NCBI RefSeq assembly: GCF_020510425.1
Contig: NZ_JAHBAH010000001.1
Coordinates: 1,178,001-1,242,000 of the forward strand
DNA: 64,000 bases
Direction of reading: 5' to 3'
Origin: Quatrionicoccus australiensis
Lineage (GTDB): Bacteria > Pseudomonadota > Gammaproteobacteria > Burkholderiales > Rhodocyclaceae
In this document: piece after piece, positions 9,041 through 36,912 of the stretch
Position numbering within the stretch: the stretch's first letter is position 1
How the letters are laid out: every line of letters starts with the position of its first letter
Program-made: the position numbers and the translations under genes
The notes under the pieces: model-generated
Told to the model about the DNA's origin: nothing
Databases searched by the model: none
The model's input: only the letters and a program-made list of their open reading frames with translations

Positions 9041-10164
9041 TGCAACTGCTGATAGAGCAGCGCGAGAATCTTCTTGGCGGTATCCGAACGATCCGTGCCA
9101 CCTTCGCTGGTCAGCACCTGCACCACCGTAATGGAGCCGACGTCGTTCAGGTGCACGCGATACTGCACCTTGCTGGAAGCCGCTGCGTCCTTGCCCTTCC
9201 AGAAAGCCAGCTTCGAGAAGAAACCGTCATCCTTCTTGGTGTTGTCGGCATCCGGGTCGACATAGCGCACGAAGTACAGGCCGCGCGAACGATCCCTGTC
9301 CTCGACGGTGAATCCAACGCGATCAAGCGCCAGACCAACCCGGCGCCAGGCGCGATCGAAACGCTCGAGAACTTCGAGCGTACCGGCGCCATCATCGGCC
9401 TTCGCCATCTTGGCACGCGGCTCGGCCTTGGCGGCGGCAATCGAGACTTCAGCACGCTTCTCCTCGGAGCCCAGGCGCACCATCAGGCGGCGCAGCATTT
9501 CAGCTTCGAGTTCCGGATCAGGCTGACGCGGCTGCCAACGGGTCTCATCCTTGGCAGAAGAGGTATAGACCTCTTCCATCGCGCGGTGGCTGATGAAAAT
9601 GTCCGTCGTACCAGGCTCAGCACCTGCTTCAAAACGGGTACGGAACTTGTCGCGCTCACCGGTCGAATACAGCGAATCGAGCAAGCCACCCAGGGTATTG
9701 CGAATGAAATCATCGCCGATCTTGGCACGATTTTCGGCCCAATCGGTTTCCATCACGCCAGCATCAGGAAGCTCCTGCTTGATGATGAAGCCGGTTTCCT
9801 GCCAGAAATCCTTGACGGTATCCCACAGCTTGTCGGCCGGCACCGCAACAACCAGCCAGCGCTGATTGCCGGAGCGCTCGACACGAACCTTGTCCACTTG
9901 CGGCAGGACGACGGAATTCTGAGCCTGGCCGGCAACCGAACGATCTGCGGTGTAAGCGGAGAAGGTGGCACTTCCCTTGCCATTGGCATCCGGCACGGCA
10001 TAACGGTCATCACGCGCCACCTGCGACAGGTCGGGCGGCACTTCAAGCGTCGGGACCTTGCCCGCCGACTTGTAGTCGATCTTGCGGGCTTCGGGAATCA
10101 TGCTGCAGCCGGTCAGGGCCAGAACCAGCAGGGAAAGGGAAAGGCTGTGCAGCCGACGATTCAT
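9037..10164 (-). CDS. bamC: Outer membrane protein assembly factor BamC
   Basis: Lipoprotein of the BAM complex that inserts beta-barrel proteins. The signal MNRRLHSLSLSLLVLALTGC gives lipidated Cys20. The conserved unstructured N-terminal lasso follows (DYKSAGKVPTLEVPPDL as YKSAG...LEVPPDL), then two helix-grip domains. 375 residues, in range for betaproteobacterial BamC. The start at 10164 is set by the signal peptide. It lies 16 bp downstream of dapA, the same order as dapA-bamC in E. coli, and overlaps the MBL gene by 4 bp. Confidence 0.93.
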   Translation of the reverse strand: MNRRLHSLSLSLLVLALTGCSMIPEARKIDYKSAGKVPTLEVPPDLSQVARDDRYAVPDANGKGSATFSAYTADRSVAGQAQNSVVLPQVDKVRVERSGNQRWLVVAVPADKLWDTVKDFWQETGFIIKQELPDAGVMETDWAENRAKIGDDFIRNTLGGLLDSLYSTGERDKFRTRFEAGAEPGTTDIFISHRAMEEVYTSSAKDETRWQPRQPDPELEAEMLRRLMVRLGSEEKRAEVSIAAAKAEPRAKMAKADDGAGTLEVLERFDRAWRRVGLALDRVGFTVEDRDRSRGLYFVRYVDPDADNTKKDDGFFSKLAFWKGKDAAASSKVQYRVHLNDVGSITVVQVLTSEGGTDRSDTAKKILALLYQQLQ

Positions 10165-10180
10165 GGTTACTTCGCTCCGC

Positions 10181-11059
10181 TCAGGCAATGACACCAGCCA
10201 GACGCATGGCGGCAAGCACACGCGGCTGGTTGGCTTCGGACAGGGTGGTCAGGGGCAGGCGGATGGCGTTGGCGGTAAGGCCCAACTTGTGCACCGCCCA
10301 CTTGACCGGAATCGGATTGGCTTCGCAGAACAGATCGCGATGCAGACCAAGCAGCTTGAAATGGATTTCACGTGCCTTGGCAACATCACCGGCAGCAGCG
10401 GCAACGCACATTTCATGCATCAGGCGCGGCGCGACATTGGCGGTCACCGAGATATTGCCGTGGAAGCCGAGCATGATCGAGGCGATGCAGGTCATGTCGT
10501 CGCCACTGTACAGCGCGAAATCCTTCGGAGCGCGGGCGATCAGATCGCTGGCACGATCCAGGTTGCCGGTCGCATCCTTGACACCGACGATACCGGGCAC
10601 TTCGGCCAGGCGCAGAATGGTGTCGTTGCTCATGTCGGCAACGGTACGGCCCGGTACGTTATAGAGCAGGACCGGCAGTTCGACGGCTTCGGCGATCGCC
10701 TTGAAATGGCGGTAGAGACCTTCCTGCGTCGGCTTGTTGTAGTAAGGCACGACCGACAGCCCCATGGTTGCGCCGGCACGCCGCGCAAACTCGGTCAGTT
10801 CGATGGCTTCCGCCGTCGAATTGGCGCCGGTTCCGGCAATCACGGGAATACGACCAGCCGCATGATCAACCGTCACGCGGATCAATTCGCAGTGTTCCTC
10901 GACGTTGACCGTCGGCGACTCACCCGTCGTACCGACAACGACGATCGCATCGCTTCCTTCTTGCACATGGAAGTCGACCAGGTTGCGCAGGGCGTTCAAA
11001 TCGAGGCTGCCATCCTCGTGCATGGGGGTGACAATGGCGACAATGGATCCAGTAATCAT
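10181..11059 (-). CDS. dapA: 4-hydroxy-tetrahydrodipicolinate synthase
   Basis: Condenses pyruvate with aspartate semialdehyde, the first committed step of the lysine/diaminopimelate pathway. 292 residues from [13 protein letters not shown]. Visible motifs are GTTGESPTV (substrate loop), YNVPGRT (catalytic Tyr) and GVKDATGNL with the Schiff-base Lys. Length and motifs are fully typical. First gene of the dapA-bamC-MBL unit. The preceding tilS-accA genes are 79 bp away on the same strand. Confidence 0.97.
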
Positions 11060-24664: not shown

Positions 24665-24709
24665 AATCCCGCACTCCCCTGCGGGTTTCGACCAGCCAAC
24701 CGACTGGTC

Positions 24710-24737
24710 ATGCCCGGCCTTTGGTGCCGGGCTTTTT
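24710..24737 (+). terminator. Intrinsic terminator
   Basis: GCCCGGC, loop, GCCGGGC and six T. Follows the small acidic protein gene. Confidence 0.85.
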
Positions 24738-24764
24738 TACGCCGAAAAATGCCTTTTTCAGCAC

Positions 24765-24803: not shown

Positions 24804-25604
24804 TCAGGCGGCGACTTTCTCGACGTGCGCCTGTTTCTCGTAGAGGAACTCGAGCACGGCGGCGCGGTAACCGATGTAATCCTGGTCGTGCGCCAGGGTC
24901 AGCCGGTTGCGCGGTCTTGGCAGATTGACTTCAAGGATTTCACCGATCGTCGCGGCCGGGCCGTTGGTCATCATCACGATGCGGTCGGAGAGCAGCACGG
25001 CTTCATCGACATCGTGCGTGACCATGACCGTGGTGGCCCGGGTCGCTTCGCAGATTTTCATCAGCTCGTCCTGCAGGCGGGCCCGGGTCAGCGCGTCGAG
25101 GGCGCCGAACGGTTCATCCATCAGCAACACTTTCGGCTGCATCGACAGCGCCCGGGCGATGCCGACGCGCTGCTTCATGCCGCCGGAAATCTCGTTCGGG
25201 TACTTGCTGCTGGCGTGATCGAGACCGACCAGATTGATCGCTGCCGCGGTCCGCTCCTTCAGCTTCGCCTTGCCTTCCTTCTGGCCGAAGACGCGTTCGA
25301 CCGCCAGGTAGACGTTCTCGAAACAGGTCAGCCAGGGCAGCAGGCTGTGGTTCTGGAAGACCACCGCCCGCTCCGGGCCCGGACCGGCAATTTCGCGGCC
25401 GTCGCAGAGCAGCACGCCGGTGGTCGGCTTGGTCAGGCCGGCAATCAGGTTGAGCAGGGTCGACTTGCCGCAACCGGAGTGGCCGATCAGCGCGATGAAC
25501 TCGCCCTGCTTGATGGACAGGTCGATGTCGCGCAGGGCGACGAATTTGCCCTTCTTGGTATCGAAGGTCTGGCCGACTTTTTCCACGCTTACGAATTTTT
25601 CCAT
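24804..25604 (-). CDS. nrtD: Nitrate ABC transporter ATP-binding protein
   Basis: 266 residues. Walker A GHSGCGKST (about 39-47), Q-loop, signature ISGGMKQRVGIARAL, Walker B VLLMDEPFGALDALTR and the H-loop VTHDVDEAV. It resembles the NrtD/SsuB/TauB nitrate-sulfonate-taurine family, and the neighbours NrtA and NrtB fix nitrate as the likely substrate. There is no fused substrate-binding domain (the NrtC type is absent), so a homodimer of this subunit probably drives uptake. It is the last gene of the operon and starts 16 bp after nrtB. Confidence 0.9.
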   Translation of the reverse strand: MEKFVSVEKVGQTFDTKKGKFVALRDIDLSIKQGEFIALIGHSGCGKSTLLNLIAGLTKPTTGVLLCDGREIAGPGPERAVVFQNHSLLPWLTCFENVYLAVERVFGQKEGKAKLKERTAAAINLVGLDHASSKYPNEISGGMKQRVGIARALSMQPKVLLMDEPFGALDALTRARLQDELMKICEATRATTVMVTHDVDEAVLLSDRIVMMTNGPAATIGEILEVNLPRPRNRLTLAHDQDYIGYRAAVLEFLYEKQAHVEKVAA

Positions 25605-25620: not shown

Positions 25621-26550
25621 TCAATCGGCTTCTTTGGTCAGCTTGCGGGCAAGCAGGATCAGGCTTTGCTCGAGAATCAGGCCGACGATGCCGATCACGA
25701 AAATGGCGATGATGATGTGTTCGACCTTGAGGTTGTTCCACTCATCCCAAACCCAGAAGCCGATGCCGACGCCACCGGTCAACATCTCGGCAGCGACGAT
25801 AACCAGCCAGGCAGTACCGATCGACAGGCGGATACCGGTCAGCATGTAGGGCAGCACGGCCGGGAAGAGGATCTTGGTGACGACCTTCCACTCGGAGAGC
25901 GCCAGGACGCGGGCGACGTTGAGGTAGTCCTGCGGCACACGCTGCACGCCCTGGGCGGTGTTCATGATCATCGGCCAGATCGAGCAGATGAAGATGGTGT
26001 AGGTCGCGGCCGGGTCTGCCTTCTTGAACACGAGCAGGCCGATCGGCAGCCAGGCCAGCGGCGACACCGGACGCAGCAGGCTGATGATCGGATTGATCAT
26101 CGCCGACAGGAAGGCCGAGCGGCCGAGGATGAAGCCGAGCGGAATGCCGACCACGGCGGCAAAGCCGAAGCCGATGCCGACGCGCTGCAGCGAGGACAAG
26201 ATGTTCCAGCCGATGCCCTGGTCGTTCGGCCCGTTGCGGTAGAACGGGTCGGCGAAGAGCACGGTGGCAGCGTCCCAGGTCTGGCCCGGGCCGGGAATGC
26301 TGCCGCCCTTGAGGGTGGCGACATACCAGATGCCGATCAGGATCAGCATGCCGAGGCTGGGCGGCAGGATGGCGCGCAGCAGGTTGTTGAATTTCTCGCC
26401 CAGCGGCGTACCGCTGGGCTGGGACAGTGTTTTTTCCATTTTCTTTTCCTTGGCCGGTAGCGCGGCTTGCGCCACAACCGGCGGGCTGTTCGGCACATCG
26501 ACCCGCGCCAGCGGGCTGACCAGATCGACACTCATCGTCGTTGCGCTCAT
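25621..26550 (-). CDS. nrtB: Nitrate ABC transporter permease
   Basis: 309 residues from the ATG at 26550 (GGAGAGAAGC precedes it). About 60 polar N-terminal residues, then six or so membrane spans. The ABC permease EAA-like loop is present in NVARVLALSEWKVVTKILFPAVLP (landmark ALSEWKVVTKILFPAVLPY). The NrtB/TauC family likely forms a homodimeric pore. The unusually long polar N-terminus (residues 1-55) is typical of NrtB. Lies between nrtA (56 bp) and nrtD (16 bp) in one operon. Confidence 0.92.
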   Translation of the reverse strand: MSATTMSVDLVSPLARVDVPNSPPVVAQAALPAKEKKMEKTLSQPSGTPLGEKFNNLLRAILPPSLGMLILIGIWYVATLKGGSIPGPGQTWDAATVLFADPFYRNGPNDQGIGWNILSSLQRVGIGFGFAAVVGIPLGFILGRSAFLSAMINPIISLLRPVSPLAWLPIGLLVFKKADPAATYTIFICSIWPMIMNTAQGVQRVPQDYLNVARVLALSEWKVVTKILFPAVLPYMLTGIRLSIGTAWLVIVAAEMLTGGVGIGFWVWDEWNNLKVEHIIIAIFVIGIVGLILEQSLILLARKLTKEAD

Positions 26551-26606
26551 GCTTCTCTCCTCGGACAGTCGTGATGCCGGCTGCAACCGGCATCACCTGC
26601 AGTCGA

Positions 26607-27872
26607 TCAGGCCTTGACCTTGAAACCGTCGGCGTACTTGGCGGGATCCTTGCCGTCCCAGACCACGCCGTCGATCAGCTTGTGGCTGCGCATGTCGCTC
26701 TTGGGCAGGGCAACACCGGCCGCAGCCGCGCCCTGCTTGTAGATGTCGATGCGATTGACCTGCTTCGCCACCTCGAGATATTTCGGGTGATCCTTGAGCA
26801 GGCCCCAGCGCTTGTGCTGGGTCATGAACCACATGCCGTCCGACAGGTAGGGGAAATTCACCGCGCCATCGTTGAAGAACTTCATGTGATTCTTGTCGTC
26901 CCAGCTCTTGCCCAGACCGTTCTGGTAACGGCCGAGCATGCGCGCCACGATGACGTCGGTGTCGGTATTGACGTAGGACTTCTGGGCGATGACTTCGGCC
27001 GTCTTCTGCTTGTTGGCGAGCGAGGCATCGATCCACTTGCCGGCATCGAGAATGGCTGCAACCACGGCGCGTGCCGTGTTCGGGTTCTTCTGCACCCATT
27101 CGGCGGTAGTGCCGAGAATCTTTTCCGGGTGATCGGTCCAGATGTCCTGCGTCGTCGTTGCCGTGAAGCCGATGTTGTCGATGATCGCCCGGTTGTTCCA
27201 GGGTTCGCCGACGCAGTAGCCATCCATGTTGCCGACGCGCATGTTGGCGACCATCTGCGGTGGCGGCACGGTGATGGTCTTGACGTCCTTGAGCGGATTG
27301 ATGCCCTGGCTGGCCAGCCAGTAATACAGCCACATCGCGTGCGTGCCGGTCGGGAAGGTCTGGGCGAAGGTGTATTCGCGCTCCTTCTTGGCAATCAATT
27401 TGGCCAGGCTGGGGCCGTCGACCGCGCCCTTGTCCTTCATCTGGTTGGACAGCGTGATCGCCTGACCGTTGGTGTTCAGGGTCATCAGGTTGGCCATGTC
27501 CTTCTTCGGCCCGCCAATGCCCATCTGCACGCCGTAGATCAGGCCGTACAGCACGTGGGCGCAATCGAGTTCGCCATTGACCAACTTGTCGCGCACCGAG
27601 GCCCAGGAAGCTTCCTTGGTCGGGATGATCTTGATGCCGTATTTCTCATCGAACTTCATGACCGAAGCCATCACCACGGAGGCACAGTCGGTCAGCGGGA
27701 TGAAGCCGATACGGACTTCCTTCTTTTCAGGGGCATCCGAACCTGCGGCCCAGGCGCCGCTGCGAACACCGGGGGGTACCATGGCCATCAGAGAGGCTCC
27801 CAAAGCGGTTGACACGAAATCACGACGAGAAATCGAGGAGGTGGTCTGTTCCACCGGCTTGCTATCGTCCAT
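26607..27872 (-). CDS. nrtA: Nitrate-binding protein of the ABC transporter (Tat-exported)
   Basis: 421 residues. The N-terminus carries a twin-arginine signal, SISRRDFVSTALGASLMAM. The mature part is the NrtA/NasF-type periplasmic binding fold (IGFIPLTDCASVVMA, then HVLYGLIYGVQMGIGGPKKDM region as YGLIYGVQMGIGG, and YCVGEPWNNRAI). It binds nitrate and/or nitrite and delivers it to NrtB. The ATG at 27872 has AAAGGAGCAAGC before it. It is first in nrtABD, behind a sigma-54 promoter and an ANTAR-type attenuator leader (separate entries). Confidence 0.93.
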   Translation of the reverse strand: MDDSKPVEQTTSSISRRDFVSTALGASLMAMVPPGVRSGAWAAGSDAPEKKEVRIGFIPLTDCASVVMASVMKFDEKYGIKIIPTKEASWASVRDKLVNGELDCAHVLYGLIYGVQMGIGGPKKDMANLMTLNTNGQAITLSNQMKDKGAVDGPSLAKLIAKKEREYTFAQTFPTGTHAMWLYYWLASQGINPLKDVKTITVPPPQMVANMRVGNMDGYCVGEPWNNRAIIDNIGFTATTTQDIWTDHPEKILGTTAEWVQKNPNTARAVVAAILDAGKWIDASLANKQKTAEVIAQKSYVNTDTDVIVARMLGRYQNGLGKSWDDKNHMKFFNDGAVNFPYLSDGMWFMTQHKRWGLLKDHPKYLEVAKQVNRIDIYKQGAAAAGVALPKSDMRSHKLIDGVVWDGKDPAKYADGFKVKA

Positions 27873-27900
27873 TGCTTGCTCCTTTGATTGCGGGAATCCA

Positions 27901-27956
27901 GAAAACAAAACGGGCGTCACATCCGGCTGCCGGTCTGGCAGCGCGGATGGACGCCC
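27901..27956 (-). terminator. Attenuator terminator in the nrtA leader
   Basis: On the minus strand, GGGCGTC...GACGCCC form a long interrupted stem (27912-27956), extended inside by CATCCG/CGGATG and CTGCC/GGCAG, followed by GTTTTGTTTTC (27901-27911). It lies before the nrtA ribosome site, so transcription would stop before the operon unless antiterminated. Confidence 0.85.
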
Positions 27957-27965
27957 TTGTCCTGT

Positions 27966-28005
27966 GAGTCGATACCTTTGACTCGCGCCCGGCCGCCATT
28001 GACCG
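27966..28005 (-). promoter_or_regulatory. ANTAR-type two-hairpin antiterminator motif in the nrtA leader
   Basis: Hairpin P1 (27990-28005, minus strand): CGGTC, loop AATGGC, GGCCG. Hairpin P2 (27966-27984): GAGTC and GACTC arms; with an inner A-U pair and a bulged C it presents loop AAGGTA. Both hexaloops have A at position 1 and G at position 4, the ANTAR-protein recognition rule. The two are 5 nt apart and followed by the attenuator. NasT, encoded just upstream, is the likely ligand. Confidence 0.75.
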
Positions 28006-28025
28006 TGCGTTAATGAACTGACTAT

Positions 28026-28042
28026 CGCAATGGCCGTGCCAG
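28026..28042 (-). promoter_or_regulatory. Sigma-54 promoter of nrtABD
   Basis: Minus strand TGGCACG (28041-28035), 4-nt spacer, TTGC (28030-28027): an exact -24/-12 element with GG and GC correctly spaced. Predicted start near 28015, ten bases before hairpin P1. Confidence 0.9.
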
Positions 28043-28131
28043 GCCCGGAATATTTTTCTTAACCCCTTGCCGGATAAGCATTTTCTCGATTTTTTCGGGG
28101 TTGACCGCTGGCCGGCGCCAGGGCGATGAAC

Positions 28132-28146
28132 GCACTATTGCAGTGC
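28132..28146. promoter_or_regulatory. NtrC-like binding site upstream of nrtA
   Basis: Dyad GCACT-N5-AGTGC, close to the NtrC consensus GCACC-N5-GGTGC. It lies about 100 bp upstream of the -24 element, a normal enhancer distance. Confidence 0.6.
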
Positions 28147-28170
28147 AGCAAGCGGCGATGCCGCACGCCT

Positions 28171-28754: not shown

Positions 28755-29135
28755 TCAAGCAAGCTCCGAACCAGCCAGCAGCAAGGCGGCCTCGGCCATG
28801 GCCTGAACAACGACTTCATGTTCGCCGATCGCATTGCCGAGTGAAAACTCGACTTGCGGATAGGTCGACCGCAAGGCGGCCAGCATTTCCGGCAGTTCGC
28901 GTTTCAAATGGCCGCCGCGCGCGATGAACATCGGCAGCACGACGATGCGCCCGGCCCCGGCGGCAATCGCATCGGCCACACACTCGGCCAGGCTGGGCGT
29001 CATGAATTCGAGAAAGGCCAGTTCGACCGGGGTTTCCGGCACACGGCCACGCAGCAAGGCCTGGACGCGGCGCATCGGGCTCGCCCATTCGGGATCGCGG
29101 GCACCATGGGCAAAGAGGATCAAGGCTGTTTTCAT
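28755..29135 (-). CDS. cbiX: Sirohydrochlorin chelatase-type protein (CbiX/SirB, single domain)
   Basis: 126 residues from MKTALILFAHGARDPEWASP, the CbiX small-form start with the metal-binding His in FAHGARD; a second motif is MFIARGGHLKRELPEM. One CbiX domain, so it would act as a homodimer inserting iron (siroheme) or cobalt. Placed directly behind nirB-nirD, it most likely supplies siroheme to the nitrite reductase. It precedes nasT by 8 bp in the same operon. The stretch 29136-29224 before it holds only a weak hairpin (about 29165-29188). Confidence 0.85.
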   Translation of the reverse strand: MKTALILFAHGARDPEWASPMRRVQALLRGRVPETPVELAFLEFMTPSLAECVADAIAAGAGRIVVLPMFIARGGHLKRELPEMLAALRSTYPQVEFSLGNAIGEHEVVVQAMAEAALLLAGSELA

Positions 29136-29224: not shown

Positions 29225-30010
29225 TCAGCCACGTACCAGCTTTTCGTAACGGCCGGTCAGGCCATCCATCACTTCGAGAATCCGCTCGCTGGTCGTTGCC
29301 ACGTTACGCACCGCAAGCTCCCGTGTTTCCCTCCCGTTCAGGGCTTGCTCGAAGAACAGCCACTGGGTGTTGGCCAGTTCCAGTTCGACGCGGATTTCCG
29401 GCGTGTTTTCCGGTGCCTGGTTGAGTTCCCTGAGTGCCGCAACGAAGTCGCGCCGCGCCGCATCCAGTTCGCCCCGCAGCGCCTCGGAGACGATACCGGA
29501 CTGCTCGACGAGAAAGCACTTGGCCATGCGCTGCGACAGCATGCGCTGCCGCCCCGAGATATTCACCAGATGCCCGGCCGTGCTGCCCGCCTGTTTTTCG
29601 TACAAACCGGTCAGCAGATGTGCCGCGCGCAAGGTCCGGTCGGACTCCGCCAGCACCAGGCGCAGATTTTCCGGCGTCCGGGGACGTCCAAGCACGTCAC
29701 GATAGCCCCCCCAGGCGCGCTCCAGATCGAGCAGTGCGCCCTTGATCGCTTCGCCGGGAGCGATGCTCGCCAATTCGGCCAGCTGCGACTCGAACAGCCG
29801 CCGCGACTGCTCGAGCAAGACCTCCGCCTTCTGCGGCATCGCGCCCAGCACCAGCATGGTGAATGCCTTCGCCATGCGCTGCGACAACATGCGTTGCCGC
29901 CCGGCCTTGTTGATCGCCGCACCCAGCGACATGGCACCGCTTTCTGCGGCAAACAGCGGCCGAGCAACAAAACTGGAGAGCGCGCCAAGAACGAAGTTCC
30001 GGCGGCGCAT
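29225..30010 (-). CDS. Exported protein with two PilJ/NarX-type sensor domains; candidate nitrate sensor
   Basis: 261 residues. Starts MRRRNFVLGALSSFVARPLFA, a short Tat-like signal (RRNFV) with likely cleavage after LFA. The rest is a duplicated PilJ/NarX N-terminal four-helix module: INKAGRQRMLSQRMAKAF (about 37-54) and again VNISGRQRMLSQRMAKCF (about 150-167). This Gly-Arg-Gln-Arg motif is the nitrate-binding P-box of NarX/NarQ. No membrane anchor, HAMP or kinase domain follows. It lies 4 bp after nirD and upstream of nasT, where NasS would be expected. A nitrate-binding role is inferred from the motif and neighbours; how an exported protein would reach NasT is unclear. Confidence 0.75.
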   Translation of the reverse strand: MRRRNFVLGALSSFVARPLFAAESGAMSLGAAINKAGRQRMLSQRMAKAFTMLVLGAMPQKAEVLLEQSRRLFESQLAELASIAPGEAIKGALLDLERAWGGYRDVLGRPRTPENLRLVLAESDRTLRAAHLLTGLYEKQAGSTAGHLVNISGRQRMLSQRMAKCFLVEQSGIVSEALRGELDAARRDFVAALRELNQAPENTPEIRVELELANTQWLFFEQALNGRETRELAVRNVATTSERILEVMDGLTGRYEKLVRG

Positions 30011-30014
30011 TCCC

Positions 30015-30326
30015 TCAGAGAGCAAGGAACACCTCGCCGCCCTCGACCTTGACCGAAAACTTGTTGCAGGAACCGACATCCGGCGCCACCGCCTGGCCGT
30101 CTTCAAGGCCGATGTTCCAGCCATGCAGCGGGCAGGTGACACGCCGGCCATGCACCAGGCCCTGCGACAGCGGACCGCCCTTGTGCGGGCACTTGTCGTG
30201 CAACGCGAAGACCTCGTCTTCGGCGTTGCGGAAAATGGCGATGTCGCCGCCCTTCTCCGGGCGCACGATGCGCGAACCCAGCGGCGGGATGTCTTCCAGC
30301 TTGCAGATCAGTTTCCAGTTGTTCAT
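30015..30326 (-). CDS. nirD: Nitrite reductase small subunit (Rieske type)
   Basis: 103 residues from MNNWKLICKLEDIPPLGSR; the ATG at 30326 follows GAGGAATACACA. It is the small partner of NirB in NADH-dependent assimilatory nitrite reduction to ammonium. Unlike E. coli NirD, it keeps Rieske ligands: CPHKGG (Cys-X-His) and CPLHGW (Cys-X2-His), so it probably carries a [2Fe-2S] cluster. 57 bp after nirB; overlaps nothing. Confidence 0.93.
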   Translation of the reverse strand: MNNWKLICKLEDIPPLGSRIVRPEKGGDIAIFRNAEDEVFALHDKCPHKGGPLSQGLVHGRRVTCPLHGWNIGLEDGQAVAPDVGSCNKFSVKVEGGEVFLAL

Positions 30327-30383
30327 TGTGTATTCCTCGATTTTTGCCATTTTTCGGATGTTGACCGCTAGCGCCTTGCGGCC

Positions 30384-32834
30384 TCAGGCAATCGCCACCG
30401 GCACGATGGGAATGAATTGCTTGATCGCTTCCGGCTCGCGCGACGTCGCCCACGGATCCTTCGCATCCTTCAGCGAGTCGAGCAGCGCGGCGTAGAGCGC
30501 CTTGCGGCCTTCGCCATCCTCGACGATCTTGCCTTTGACGTAATCCATGCCGACCCGCTCCAGCCAGTGGCAGGTGCGCTCCAGGTACCAGCCCTCGACG
30601 CGATAAAGCTGCAGGAAGGCGCCGGAATATTCCATGACCTCCTCGTCCGAACCGACCTTGCACAGGAACTGCGCGACTTCGGTCTTGATGCCGCCGTTGC
30701 CGGCGATGTAGATCTCGTAGCCGGAATCGACGCCGATGATGCCGACGTCCTTGATGCCAGCTTCGGCGCAGTTGCGCGGACAGCCGGAGACGGCGAGCTT
30801 GACCTTGTGCGGCGCATACATGTCGAACAGCATCTTCTCGAGCTTGACGCCCATCGACATCGCCAGTTGCGTGCCAAAGCGGCAGTGCTCGGCGCCGACG
30901 CAGGTCTTCACGGTGCGGATCGACTTGCCGTAGGCGTGGCCGGACACCATGCCGGCGGCGTTGAGGTCGGCCCAGATGCCGGGCAGGTCTTCCTTCTTGA
31001 TGCCGAGCAGATCGATACGCTGACCGCCGGTGACCTTGACGGTCGGCACGTTGTACTTTTCCGCCGCATCGGCAATGGCGCGCAGCTCGGCCGGCGTCGT
31101 CAGGCCGCCCCACATGCGCGGCACCACCGAATAGGTACCGTCCTTCTGGATGTTGGCGTGCGAACGCTCGTTGATCAGGCGCGACTGCGGATCGTCCTTG
31201 GCCTCGTGCGGCCAGGTCGAGATCAGGTAGTAATTGACGGCCGGGCGACACTTGTCGCAACCGTTCGGCGTCTTCCATTCGAGGGCCTTGAAGACGGCTT
31301 CCTTGCTGACCAGATGCTGCTCGCGGATCGCATCGCGCACCATCTTGTGCGACTGCTCGGTACAGCCGCAGACCGGCTTCTTGTCGGAAGCGGCCGGTGT
31401 GTAGGCGCCGCCGATGGTCGAGGCAAGAATCTGTTCGACCAGGCCGGCGCAGGAACCGCAGGACGATGCCGCCTTGGTGTGCCTCTTGACCTCGTCGAGC
31501 GTAAACAGGCCCTTTTCCTTGATCGCCTTGACGATGGTGCCCTTGGTCACACCGTTGCAGCCGCAGACCTCGGCCGTGTCTGGCATTTCGGCCGCCTTGC
31601 TGTTGCCGGCGTGGCCGACGTCGCCGACCAGCGACTGGCCGAAGATCAGCGAATCGCGGATGTCGTGGATGTCGCGGCCGTCCTTGAGCAACTGGAAATA
31701 CCACGGGCCGTCGGCCGTATCGCCGTACATGACGCCGCCGACCAGCTTGTTGTCCTTGACCACCAGTTTCTTGTAAACACCGCCGTACGGGTCGTTGAGC
31801 AGGATTTCCTCGCAGCCCTCGCCGCCCATGTAGTTGCCGGCAGAAAAGAGGTCGATGCCGGTCACCTTGAGCTTGGTCGAGGTCACCGAGCCGGTGTAGC
31901 GGCCGATGCCGTAGCCGGCCAGGTGATTGGCGGCGACCTTGGCCTGCTCGAAGAGCGGCGCGACCAGGCCGTAGGCGATGCCGCGGTGGCTGACGCATTC
32001 GCCAACCGCGTAGACCTTGGGATCGTAGGTCTGCATCGTGTCGTTCACGACGATGCCGCGGTTGCAGTAGATGCCCGAGGCTTCGGCCAGCGTGTAGTTG
32101 GGGCGGATGCCGGCGGCCATCACGACGAGATCGGCCGGCAACTGCATGCCATCCTTGAAGCGGATCGCCGCGACGCGCCCGCTCTCGCCGGGAATCAGCG
32201 CCTCGGTATGCTTCTGCAGCAGGAATTTGAGACCCTTGTCTTCGAGCGACTTCTGCAACATGCGGCCGGCCACTTCGTCGAGCTGACGTTCAAGCAGCCA
32301 CGGGCCGATATGCACCACGGTGACGTCCATGCCGCGCAGCTTGAGGCCATTGGCAGCTTCCAGGCCGAGCAGGCCGCCGCCGATGACGACCGCGTGCTTG
32401 TGCAGCCTGGCGGCTTCGATCATCTCGTCGGTGTCCTTGATGTCGCGGTAACCGATGACGCCGGGCAGATCGTTGCCGGGAATCGGCAGCATGAAGGGCG
32501 TCGAGCCGGTGGCGACGAGCAGGCGGTCGTAATGTTCCTCGCTGCCGTCGTCGGCAATCACCTTGCGATTGACGCGATCGATCTTCACCACCTGCTTGCC
32601 GGTGTGCAAGGTGATCTTGTTTTCCTTGTACCACTCGAGTTCGTTGAGCACGATCTCGGCGATGGTCATTTCGCCGGCAAGCACCGGCGAGAGCAGGATG
32701 CGGTTGTAGTTGGGATGCGGTTCGGCACCGAAGATCGTGATGTCGTAGTGATCCGGCTTGATCTTCAGGAGTTCTTCAACGGTACGGACACCGGCCATGC
32801 CGTTGCCGATCAGGACGAGACGGGGTTTGCTCAT
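30384..32834 (-). CDS. nirB: Nitrite reductase [NAD(P)H] large subunit
   Basis: 816 residues. Order: FAD/NAD(P)-binding pyridine-nucleotide oxidoreductase domain (LVLIGNGMAGVRTVEELL; VIGGGLLGLEAANGL), BFD-like [2Fe-2S] region (CGCNGVTKGTIVKAI; CGSCAGLVEQI), ferredoxin-like half domains, then the siroheme/[4Fe-4S] motif CVGAEHCRFG...SGCPRNCAEAG. It reduces nitrite by six electrons to ammonium in the cytosol. The ATG at 32834 is chosen because GGAG lies six bases upstream. Driven by a sigma-54 promoter at 32971. Confidence 0.96.
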   Translation of the reverse strand: MSKPRLVLIGNGMAGVRTVEELLKIKPDHYDITIFGAEPHPNYNRILLSPVLAGEMTIAEIVLNELEWYKENKITLHTGKQVVKIDRVNRKVIADDGSEEHYDRLLVATGSTPFMLPIPGNDLPGVIGYRDIKDTDEMIEAARLHKHAVVIGGGLLGLEAANGLKLRGMDVTVVHIGPWLLERQLDEVAGRMLQKSLEDKGLKFLLQKHTEALIPGESGRVAAIRFKDGMQLPADLVVMAAGIRPNYTLAEASGIYCNRGIVVNDTMQTYDPKVYAVGECVSHRGIAYGLVAPLFEQAKVAANHLAGYGIGRYTGSVTSTKLKVTGIDLFSAGNYMGGEGCEEILLNDPYGGVYKKLVVKDNKLVGGVMYGDTADGPWYFQLLKDGRDIHDIRDSLIFGQSLVGDVGHAGNSKAAEMPDTAEVCGCNGVTKGTIVKAIKEKGLFTLDEVKRHTKAASSCGSCAGLVEQILASTIGGAYTPAASDKKPVCGCTEQSHKMVRDAIREQHLVSKEAVFKALEWKTPNGCDKCRPAVNYYLISTWPHEAKDDPQSRLINERSHANIQKDGTYSVVPRMWGGLTTPAELRAIADAAEKYNVPTVKVTGGQRIDLLGIKKEDLPGIWADLNAAGMVSGHAYGKSIRTVKTCVGAEHCRFGTQLAMSMGVKLEKMLFDMYAPHKVKLAVSGCPRNCAEAGIKDVGIIGVDSGYEIYIAGNGGIKTEVAQFLCKVGSDEEVMEYSGAFLQLYRVEGWYLERTCHWLERVGMDYVKGKIVEDGEGRKALYAALLDSLKDAKDPWATSREPEAIKQFIPIVPVAIA

Positions 32835-32926
32835 TATGGGCTCCAACGATGCGTGCGCCCGGAGGGACGCGAAACTTGTGTTTCAGCGCATGACGTCTTT
32901 GCCATTGCGGACCGGAGCGGTCCATT

Positions 32927-34095: not shown

Positions 34096-36819
34096 TCAAA
34101 CGGGCACAGTCTCATGGGTCTTGCATTCAGCCAGCATCCGCTTGATGTCCGGCACACAGGAACCACAGAAGGTTCCACATTTCAGATTCTGCTGCAGCGC
34201 GGGCAAATCGGCACCAGCAGTAATTGCAGCCTTGATTTGTACGTCACTGACATCGGCGCACTTGCAGACAATGTTGCGCGGCGCAATGGTAACCGGCGGC
34301 GCACTGCATGGCGCCAGCGCAAAGCGGATCATCGCCGGATCAAGCTCATCCTCTGCCATCGCCTGCTTCAACCAGGTCTGGGCGAGCACCTCGCCGGCCA
34401 GGCGCACGGCAAGCAGACGGCCATCGCGCGAAATCGCCTTCTTGGCAATATTCCGGCTGCGATCGCTATAGACGATCGCACCGGCATCGCCCGCCATGCC
34501 GAACAACTGGTCAAGCGCAGCAAGCGCCGCGGCATCGAGTGGCTGTTCCAGCGCTGCCCGGAACACGACCAGCGGCGCCTGCCGCCCATAGAGACTGACA
34601 TTGGCGTAGGGATAGCGGTCGAGCAACGGACGCGCCTCCTGCATCAATTGCAGCGCTTCGGCCTGGCTTTCGCAACGGCGGATGACGGCCAGCGGATAAG
34701 GCAGTTCGAGACGGGCGATCTGCACGGCGGCATGCTTGAGTTCCGGCTGCATCGAGGCTGGATCAACCGCATCGCAAGCCACGGCATTGGCACCGGGCGA
34801 GTTGAGGAACTGACTGCCCCAGTGCATCGGCAGCCAGGCCTGGCCTTTCTGCATCCCGGCCCGCTCGACGACGCGCAGGACGCTGTCGCCACGCGCATTG
34901 CTGAGCCGCGCCAGATCGCCGCTCGCCAAAGCCCGGTGGCGCATGTCGCAAGGATGCATGCCGAGCAAGGGTTCGTCTTCCTGGTTGAACAGGCGCGGCA
35001 CGGTGCCGGTCCGGCTCATGCCGTGCCATTGATCGCGCATGCGCCCGGAAAGCAGGCTGATTGGCAGGTCGACCGTGTTGGCATCGGCGGTCGGCTGATG
35101 CTCGATCGGCAGGAAGGCGGCCTTGCCGTCGGCAGAGGCAAACACGCCATCTTCATAAAGACGCGTCTTGCCGGCGGAAGCGCCCTGCGGATACGGCCAT
35201 TGCTGCGGGCCGGCCTGCTCGAGCAAGGCATAACTCAGGCCGCCGATATCGAGATCGCGACCCAGCGTGCTGGTGCGATGCTCGTTGAAGATCGCTTCGG
35301 CATCGGCGTAGGGGAACAAGTGCTCGGTGGCCGGATTGCCCAGCTTGAGCCCGAGCCGGCGCGCGAAATCGACAACGATCTGCCAGTCGTGGCGGGCTTC
35401 GCCCGGCGCGGCAACCGCCGACTGAACGCGACTGATGCGGCGCTCGGAATTGGTCACCGTGCCGTGTTTTTCACCCCAGGTCGTGGCTGGCAGCAGGAGG
35501 TCGGCATAGGCCGCAGTATCGGTGTTGCCATAGGCTTCCTGCAGCACAACATAGTCGGCCGCTTCCAGTGCCGCGCGTACGGCTGCCTGGTTGGGCAGCG
35601 ATTGCGCCGGATTCGTGCAGGCAATCCAGACCGCCTTGATTTCGCCGGTTTTCAGGCTTTTGAACAGGTCGACCGCTGACTTGCCCGGTTGCGACGGCAC
35701 GTCGGGAATCCCCCACAGCTTCGCCACTTCGGCACGATGTGCGGGATTGCCCAGGTCACGGTGCGCCGACAACTGGTTGGCCAGGCCGCCGACTTCGCGC
35801 CCGCCCATCGCATTCGGCTGACCGGTCAGGGAAAATGGCCCGGCGCCGGGTTTGCCGATCTGGCCGGTCGCCAGATGCAGATGGATGATGCCGGCGTTAT
35901 TCTGCGTCCCGTGCGCTGACTGGTTGAGCCCCTGGCAGTAGAGCGAAAGTGCTGCCTTGCTGCCGGCAAACCAGCGCGCTGCCGTGACGATATCGGCAGC
36001 CCGCAGACCACAGATCGCCGCCACGTGCTCCGGGGTGTATGTAGCGACGATCGCCTTGAGTTCGGCATAGCCACGGGTGTGCGCAGCAATGTAAGCAGCG
36101 TCGACCAGATTCTCGGCAATCATCACCTGCAGCATGCCGTTGAACAGCGCGACATCGGTGCCCGGCTTGAGCGGCAGGTGCAGATCGGCGATCTCCGCCG
36201 TCTCGCTGCGCCGCGGATCGGCAACGATGATGCGCAGGTTCGGGTTGGCGGCCCGTGCATCCTCGATCCGGCGAAAAACGATGGGATGGGCAAGCGCCGG
36301 ATTGGCACCACTGATGAAGATCAGGCCGGCCTGATCGATATCCTCGTAGCTGCAAGGCGGCGCATCGACGCCCAGGGTCTGCTTGTAGCCTGCCACCGCG
36401 GAGGACATGCAGAGACGCGAATTGGTATCGACGTTGTTGGTACCGACCAGCCCCTTGGCCAGTTTGTTGAAGACGTAGTAATCCTCGGTCATCAATTGAC
36501 CGGAGATATAAAAGGCAACCGAATCCGGGCCATGCTCGCGGATGATCGAAGCAAAACGCTCGGCCGCCTGATCGAGCGCCGCATCCCAACTCAGACGCTG
36601 GCGCAGGCCACCGCGCTGCTGCCGGTGCTCGGGATGGAGCAGGCGATAGGTGGTGTCGGCCGTCAGATGCAGGCTGGCCCCCTTGGTGCACAAACGACCG
36701 AAATTCGCGGGATGCTCCGGATCACCGCGCACGCCAACAATCCTGCCGCCTTCGCTGGCAACCAGAACACCGCAGCCGACGCCGCAATAACAACAAGTGG
36801 ATTTGACTTCAGTTTGCAT
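34096..36819 (-). CDS. nasA: Assimilatory nitrate reductase catalytic subunit
   Basis: 907 residues starting MQTEVKSTCCYCGVGCGV. The [4Fe-4S] motif is CX2CX3C...C (CYCGVGC...LCTKG). Then the molybdopterin bis-MGD domains (SLYCQGLNQSAHGTQNN; QPNAMGGREVGGLANQL). A C-terminal BFD-like [2Fe-2S] domain has CKCADVSDVQIKAAI and CGTFCGSCVPDI, a feature of NasA/NasC. It reduces nitrate to nitrite in the cytosol, with electrons probably from a separate flavoprotein or ferredoxin not encoded here. The ATG at 36819 is set by AAAGGGAAAATC and the promoter. Confidence 0.95.
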   Translation of the reverse strand: MQTEVKSTCCYCGVGCGVLVASEGGRIVGVRGDPEHPANFGRLCTKGASLHLTADTTYRLLHPEHRQQRGGLRQRLSWDAALDQAAERFASIIREHGPDSVAFYISGQLMTEDYYVFNKLAKGLVGTNNVDTNSRLCMSSAVAGYKQTLGVDAPPCSYEDIDQAGLIFISGANPALAHPIVFRRIEDARAANPNLRIIVADPRRSETAEIADLHLPLKPGTDVALFNGMLQVMIAENLVDAAYIAAHTRGYAELKAIVATYTPEHVAAICGLRAADIVTAARWFAGSKAALSLYCQGLNQSAHGTQNNAGIIHLHLATGQIGKPGAGPFSLTGQPNAMGGREVGGLANQLSAHRDLGNPAHRAEVAKLWGIPDVPSQPGKSAVDLFKSLKTGEIKAVWIACTNPAQSLPNQAAVRAALEAADYVVLQEAYGNTDTAAYADLLLPATTWGEKHGTVTNSERRISRVQSAVAAPGEARHDWQIVVDFARRLGLKLGNPATEHLFPYADAEAIFNEHRTSTLGRDLDIGGLSYALLEQAGPQQWPYPQGASAGKTRLYEDGVFASADGKAAFLPIEHQPTADANTVDLPISLLSGRMRDQWHGMSRTGTVPRLFNQEDEPLLGMHPCDMRHRALASGDLARLSNARGDSVLRVVERAGMQKGQAWLPMHWGSQFLNSPGANAVACDAVDPASMQPELKHAAVQIARLELPYPLAVIRRCESQAEALQLMQEARPLLDRYPYANVSLYGRQAPLVVFRAALEQPLDAAALAALDQLFGMAGDAGAIVYSDRSRNIAKKAISRDGRLLAVRLAGEVLAQTWLKQAMAEDELDPAMIRFALAPCSAPPVTIAPRNIVCKCADVSDVQIKAAITAGADLPALQQNLKCGTFCGSCVPDIKRMLAECKTHETVPV

Positions 36820-36843
36820 GATTTTCCCTTTGGCATGGCTTTG

Positions 36844-36860
36844 AGCAACAGCCGTGCCAT
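36844..36860 (-). promoter_or_regulatory. Sigma-54 promoter of nasA
   Basis: Minus strand TGGCACG (36859-36853), 4-nt spacer, TTGC (36848-36845). The predicted start near 36833 gives only a 14-nt leader, so unlike nrtA this operon has no room for an attenuator. Confidence 0.88.
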
Positions 36861-36912
36861 CTTTAAAAATCATGGACTTGGATAACAAACGGGGAAATTT
36901 CCGATGGAAATC

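Follow-up and report, generated by a model that had tools for sequence, protein, structure and literature searches.

The nirBD/nas operon of Quatrionicoccus australiensis encodes PilJ2, a protein of two PilJ domains that, judging from its sequence, is probably a soluble, Tat-exported accessory of the operon acting in the periplasm and not an antagonist of the antiterminator NasT. It would be the exported form of a known sensor module for which the literature searches made returned no description (no paper combining PilJ with nirB and nirD was found), and as such a free, exported, two-in-one version of a membrane sensor module inside the assimilatory operons of many genera of betaproteobacteria. 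The window (the whole stretch of DNA analysed, 64,000 nucleotides) holds the gene where the first-pass annotation had placed it, with nirD on one side and the overlapping cbiX-nasT pair on the other (Table 1). The gene lies downstream of nasA, of a gene that we take to be ybiB-like and of nirB, and upstream of nrtABD.

Table 1. Features of the pilJ2 locus (positions are those of the window).
Feature	Position	Strand	Basis
nrtD	24804..25604	minus	TIGR01184 above cut-off
nrtB	25621..26586	minus	TIGR01183 above cut-off
nrtA with predicted Tat signal (SRRDFVSTALG...AWA), candidate NasS stand-in	26607..27872	minus	PF13379
nrtA leader, putative target of NasT: hexaloop hairpins of A1/G4 type, two in number (first at 28005), followed by a GC stem and a T-run	27873..28170	minus	
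nasT, REC-ANTAR antiterminator, sole ANTAR match of the genome	28171..28758	minus	profile matches
cbiX, sirohydrochlorin chelatase-type, overlaps nasT	28755..29135	minus	PF01903
pilJ2, tandem-PilJ protein, predicted exported, 261 aa, ATG at 30010	29225..30010	minus	
Nitrate box 2 of PilJ2, VNISGRQRMLSQ	29531..29566	minus	11 of 12 N-box positions, A to S; Arg invariant in alignment A1
Nitrate box 1 of PilJ2, INKAGRQRMLSQ	29879..29914	minus	exact N-box match; no variation in alignment A1 (11 rows)
Putative Tat-type signal peptide of PilJ2, about 22 residues	29945..30010	minus	sequence; conservation of the RR motif; residues 1-24 of low pLDDT
nirD	30015..30350	minus	TIGR02378 above cut-off
nirB	30384..32846	minus	TIGR02374 above cut-off
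nasA-like molybdopterin reductase, C-terminal BFD domain	34096..36888	minus	named by context; NCBIfam matches below cut-offs

PilJ (PF13675) is the sole Pfam match of PilJ2 and covers two stretches of it (E 9.2e-24, 84.2 bits against a gathering score of 26.6). At E 0.001 the Pfam scan returned no HAMP, kinase or further domain, which bears out the first-pass annotation, and it gave neither an ANTAR domain nor the NrtA-like PF13379 fold. PF08376 (NIT) was also without a match in PilJ2; the same Pfam library detects NIT in the NasR-like proteins of four loci considered below (L233-L236). PilJ domains are known in chemoreceptors, kinases and other regulators, as far as the part of the literature available goes. 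The N-box of such domains was defined in the paper on the chemoreceptor McpN as [IVL][ND]xAGxQRML[ST]Q, with a key arginine named, and the available part of that paper places a single nitrate on the dimer axis of McpN and describes PilJ of P. aeruginosa as having two PilJ units, no N-box or conserved boxes and no nitrate binding (PMC6381276). Both of the nitrate-box motifs that had been claimed for PilJ2 are there, the first as an exact N-box and the second with one substitution. Conservation of the boxes was scored in a non-redundant set of 119 relatives, comprising 61 copies from nitrate operons, 25 from a tldD-aroG locus and 33 from elsewhere. Box 1 in its strict form occurs in 60/61, 23/25 and 21/33 of these copies, respectively, and strict box 2 in 42/61 (with A to S in a further 16 and no box found in 3), 3/25 and 15/33, a conservation that is partly built in because part of the loci was collected by box-containing patterns (GRQRMLSQ, AAINKAGR); the copies free of this collection are those of L053-L058, L073-L112 and L233-L249.

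The AF2 model of PilJ2, built from an 11-row alignment (mean pLDDT 89.9, pTM 0.86), consists of eight long helices arranged in two bundles, with low confidence for residues 1-24. A Foldseek search of the PDB with this model gave no match at E 0.001 or better. Among the best 50 of 323 matches the highest query TM-scores, 0.61 and 0.66 over about 260 columns, belong to the two chains of NasR (4akk), and with its eight helices and a TM-score of 0.66 to 4akk_A over 260 columns the modelled protein would have a NasR-type double four-helix bundle. McpN (6gcv) fits one of the two bundles (target TM 0.74-0.76), and a profile search with PilJ2 gave sequence matches to McpN (E 8.5e-6) and PilJ. Since two PilJ domains amount to two four-helix bundles, one chain would mimic a sensor dimer of the NarX/McpN type, and we infer from the model that PilJ2 copies such a dimer with one nitrate site, a single nitrate being held between the two boxes.

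The N-terminus of PilJ2, MRRRNFVLGALSSFVARPLFA/AES, resembles a Tat signal, and the twin-arginine motif, the hydrophobic stretch and the A-x-A-like cleavage site are found in PilJ2 and in its relatives. Judged by motif, and independently of the box-containing collection patterns, a Tat signal was scored in 55/61 nitrate-operon copies, 2/25 copies at the tldD-aroG locus and 12/33 elsewhere. The six misses among the nitrate-operon copies comprise two apparently truncated or frameshifted starts (L054, L080), two rows matched at the second box (L081 and the second row of L243), one in which RR is present and the pattern failed (L193) and one with no motif in the stretch shown (L238). This conservation makes export the better supported of the two readings offered by the first-pass annotation; the other, in which the signal is a mere hydrophobic helix and the protein stays in the cytosol, was rejected as the main reading. 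The conserved signal likewise argues against PilJ2 as a cytosolic partner of NasT, although a folded PilJ2 precursor could conceivably make contact with NasT before export.

Tat substrates fold in the cytosol before export. As an exported accessory, PilJ2 would thus be made together with NirBD, fold in the cytosol and then be exported, and once in the periplasm it would most likely, as a guess, bind nitrate for uptake or for a membrane partner.

PilJ2 is optional within the genus. It was found in 8 of the 36 genus genomes searched, at 63% identity at least (one copy partial, at a contig edge), and all eight are among the 30 that carry NasT. In the other 22 NasT-bearing genomes, some of them incomplete, it was not found, and its apparent absence from most related operons indicates that it is dispensable. 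Besides the six PilJ2 loci L053-L058, 8 of 40 further NasT loci (L073-L112) carry it, some of the other stretches stopping short of the place of pilJ2; in six (L100, L101, L102, L104, L107, L112) the gap between nirD and cbiX is too small for the gene. In a scan of named genomes, pilJ2 lies between nirB and nirD in 26 loci among the best 80 of 269, usually with nasA next; these 26 come from Variovorax, Rhodoferax, Polaromonas, Acidovorax, Hydrogenophaga, Aquabacterium, Curvibacter and others. In a sample of 120 genomes of one family (f49), nirB was detected at E 1e-150 or better in 97, a few of them partial or distant, and by coordinates PilJ2 directly follows nirB (78-240 bases) in 17 of the 97. 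The order nirB-pilJ2-nirD also occurs in another family (L149), the sole PilJ2 carrier among 40 loci of the order.

Tandem-PilJ genes were also seen in other arrangements. In L243 (G561) two of them stand consecutively between nirB and nirD. A second exported tandem-PilJ group, with a Sec-type signal, occupies a conserved tldD-cytochrome c-aroG neighbourhood (L062 7333-8109 and others). The genome of Q. australiensis itself holds a paralog (L017 6388-7245) that is 32% identical, with a Sec-type signal and altered boxes, and no nitrate genes were recognised in its surroundings. In Ralstonia sp. A12 (L160) a PilJ-box protein without an evident signal (9148-9933) is encoded directly before an exported tandem-PilJ protein (9956-10747), possibly, to go by the sequences, as a cytosolic/exported pair. 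Many nas loci of the genus (L053 7735-9441, L057 10790-12517 and others) encode a long protein, named from its sequence as an apparent PP2C phosphatase/Ser-Thr kinase fusion, with a C-terminal hydrophobic stretch and sometimes in two copies; this gene was not seen at the window locus. A tie of PilJ2 to the PP2C/kinase gene or to NarK was considered and rejected, loci with and without these genes occurring both with and without PilJ2.

The regulators that accompany PilJ2 are mixed. An ANTAR protein is present in all 17 of the f49 genomes with nirB-pilJ2, and it is of several kinds. In six its frame is 407-850 aa long and lies 3-8 kb away from nirB; four of these proteins (L233-L236) are of the NasR-like NIT-ANTAR type, confirmed by Pfam, and the other two (L237, L238) are classed as NasR-type by position and partial similarity alone. 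Four genomes (L239-L241, L243) have NasT followed by an NrtA homologue (73-76%) and NrtBD, five (L245-L249) have a REC-ANTAR-PilJ-PilJ fusion, and in two (G531, G565) an ANTAR protein of NasT size is located elsewhere. One Curvibacter MAG (L229, a single case) combines NasT, a signal-less NasS (PF13379) and nirB-pilJ2-nirD in one locus. Because PilJ2 is found with NasR, with the fusion and, in L229, with a true NasS, it is not specific to loci lacking NasS. Its use as a marker of such loci was rejected.

In the REC-ANTAR-PilJ-PilJ fusion, which is apparently undescribed, a NasT-like ANTAR region is followed by PilJ boxes in one frame. It was recognised in ten named loci (L168, L176, L193, L195, L197, L199, L201, L212, L221, L224), with one box recognised in L168 and L212, and in Comamonadaceae it is encoded near nirB (L199 2948-4189, L201 5817-7052 and L176 2158-3408, these three on the minus strand, and others). 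Pfam finds ANTAR and two PilJ stretches in all three fusions scanned; it reported no receiver match in these three, and the case for a receiver part is made by the similarity to NasT and by the model. This model (pLDDT 88.2, pTM 0.69) predicts a receiver-like part and ANTAR-type helices, with a single helix (157-195) running from the ANTAR end into the first nitrate box. EutV and other ANTAR regulators lead the PDB matches of the model, and NasR comes in at rank 44. Full-length matches occur in 17 of the 120 f49 genomes, with partial matches in 2 more, and in 3 of 399 genomes of the order sample; 18 of the 19 f49 fusions lie within 5 kb of nirB. Five of the 17 PilJ2 genomes have the fusion where about 3.3 would be expected (97 nirB genomes with 19 fusions), which shows no link between PilJ2 and the fusion. 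The Comamonadaceae proteins do show that an ANTAR protein can carry tandem PilJ. Literature searches for ANTAR with PilJ (15 of 142 papers) and for NasT with PilJ found, among the matches listed, no title or abstract describing such a protein, which near nirB looks like a further design of nitrate-responsive antiterminator besides NasS-NasT and NIT-ANTAR.

The locus is neither a textbook NasS-NasT system nor a NasR one, as had been noted from the window. NasT is the single ANTAR match of the genome (2 contigs, 100% complete), which also has six NMT1_2 matches, four of them above the cut-off: the NrtA of the locus (Tat), a Tat-type protein beside a permease and two proteins with Sec-type signals. 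Since all four have signal peptides, as judged by eye, no nasS was found in the genome among the matches above the cut-off. NasS, according to the part of the source available, is a signal-less relative of NrtA whose complex with NasT dissociates on nitrate, and nasS genes may be misannotated (PMC3795266). Among 40 NasT loci from other genera of the order, a Tat-NrtA directly follows NasT in 22, a signal-less NasS-like protein in 12 and neither is adjacent in 6, the signal classes here and in the genus being set by a regular expression, with L121, L127, L145, L058, L102, L104, L105 and L106 assigned by hand. The Tat-NrtA of L123 belongs to a distant type, L128 has, besides its Tat-NrtA, a NasS-like gene farther along, and the NasS-like assignment in L125 is doubtful. 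Of 47 NasT loci collected within the genus, two are not informative because they stop at a contig edge (L056) or a scaffold gap (L082). In all of the other 45 an NrtA-like gene follows nasT, and in 41 it carries the Tat motif, with NrtB in the stretch at 69-100%.

This frequency of an exported NrtA right after NasT without NasS (22/40 in the order, 41/45 in the genus) raises the question of how NasT senses nitrate, and NrtA is a concrete candidate. Being apparently a Tat substrate, NrtA would already be folded in the cytosol, where it could act on NasT ahead of its export. That NrtA is the nitrate sensor of NasT in the genus, holding or releasing NasT by nitrate and also serving the transporter, is a serious prospect, if at somewhat less than an even chance. 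The two roles, NrtA in the place of NasS and PilJ2 as an exported accessory, can be true together, and the adjacent Tat-exported NrtA is probably a better candidate for NasS than PilJ2. Besides the constant neighbourhood, the relationships of the proteins argue for NrtA. NasS and Tat-NrtA fall into a single clade, well separated from NrtA of the 33% type, in a first tree (which omitted 8 of the 90 collected rows as near copies or fragments, and also L106 and others, and counted L199, its start cut, as Tat). The four genus loci in which NrtA has no signal (L077, L078, L086, L106) come from genomes where NrtB is matched at 48% at best or not at all, against 69-100% in the other 41. In a second tree of 30 chosen rows with L106 added, the binding protein of L106 nests within the Tat-NrtA clade of the genus (98/98); the leader between nasT and its core is missing. 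In L106 (9541-10806, G025) the core of nrtA comes immediately after nasT and its Tat signal region is broken; the genome, 89% complete, yielded no nrtB. This may be a gene in decay or a nasTS-like operon that is just forming, and decay would weaken the case for NrtA. The proteins of L077, L078 and L086 group with NasS in the first tree and are sister to the Tat-NrtA clade in the second; being outside that clade, they may be acquired, which also tells against NrtA. A further point against it is that NrtABD also follows the NasR-type genes of L233-L236 (and of L237 and L238), so position alone is no proof of a partnership with NasT, as are the six of 40 order loci with neither NrtA nor NasS adjacent.

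The RNA ahead of nrtA also speaks for NrtA. Hexaloop hairpins with A at position 1 and G at position 4 are the kind bound by ANTAR proteins, and the nrtA leader is the only site in the window with such hairpins by the pattern used. The search relied on this pattern and a shuffle control because Rfam gave only a weak P11 match in the leader (27913-28053, E 0.11, below the gathering score). With a looser pattern, two hairpins are present in 69 of 83 gaps between nasT and nrtA or nasS, whereas 29 of 1660 shuffles have them. In the genus 43 of 44 gaps contain them, the exception being L106; they are missing in 8 of 12 NasS-type loci. Just outside nrtD, at 24667-24740 on the plus strand, Rfam also matches anti-hemB (E 0.0073) and SorX (E 0.1) weakly, below the gathering scores.

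It is rather unlikely that NasT works without a dedicated antagonist, its activity being set by the amount of NasT, by receiver phosphorylation or by RNA supply. NasT does keep a receiver domain (PF00072), and the six order loci without an adjacent NasS or NrtA would fit, but the constant NrtA or NasS neighbour in the genus suggests a partner. Less probable still is the proposal of the first-pass annotation that PilJ2 acts on NasT as a nitrate-responsive antagonist replacing NasS, binding it either ahead of export or without being exported at all. The shared neighbourhood, the failure to find nasS in the genome, the fusion of PilJ repeats to ANTAR in Comamonadaceae (L199, L201, L176) and the resemblance of the predicted PilJ2 fold to the sensor half of NasR speak for it; against it stand the conserved Tat motif, the 22 of 30 NasT genomes of the genus in which PilJ2 was not found, its coexistence with NasS (L229), NasR and the fusion (5/17 genomes) and the commonness in the order of NasT without NasS. 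A generic chemotaxis or motility accessory present in the operon by chance, which would suit the PilJ domains of chemoreceptors (on the part of the literature available) and the exported relatives at other loci (25 at tldD-aroG, 33 unclassified), is equally improbable given the recurrence of pilJ2 between nirB and nirD and the greater frequency of strict box 2 in nitrate operons than at tldD-aroG or elsewhere. A broader scheme can tentatively be sketched, in which the NasT sensor in the genus and much of the order is the Tat substrate NrtA, cytosolic sensor and periplasmic binder at once, with NasS as its non-exported version; tandem PilJ would supply antitermination with a separate nitrate input, as part of a fusion in Comamonadaceae and as a free, exported protein in nirBD operons.

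Among known systems, the ligand-binding domain of the PilJ chemoreceptor (PDB 7zjr, 8wdf) has two PilJ units per chain like PilJ2, but it belongs to a membrane receptor, its boxes are not conserved and no nitrate binding is reported for it in the part of the source available. The ligand-binding domain of McpN (P. aeruginosa PA2788; PDB 6gcv) has the PilJ domain, the N-box and the four-helix bundle in common with PilJ2; in McpN these domains dimerise as parts of a membrane chemoreceptor, whereas PilJ2 is predicted to be soluble and exported, with two units in each chain. The sensor domains of NarX and NarQ are also of the PF13675 type, and unlike PilJ2 these proteins are membrane kinases with HAMP and transmitter parts. 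NasS and PilJ2 both occur in NasT loci and are both predicted to bind nitrate. They differ in that NasS resembles NrtA and has no signal, while PilJ2 is helical, of the PilJ type, and bears a Tat-type signal. In predicted fold PilJ2 resembles NasR (NIT-ANTAR; PDB 4akk) over about 260 columns, and it shares with NasR the context of nitrate assimilation; PilJ2 differs from it in having an export signal and in lacking both ANTAR and PF08376.
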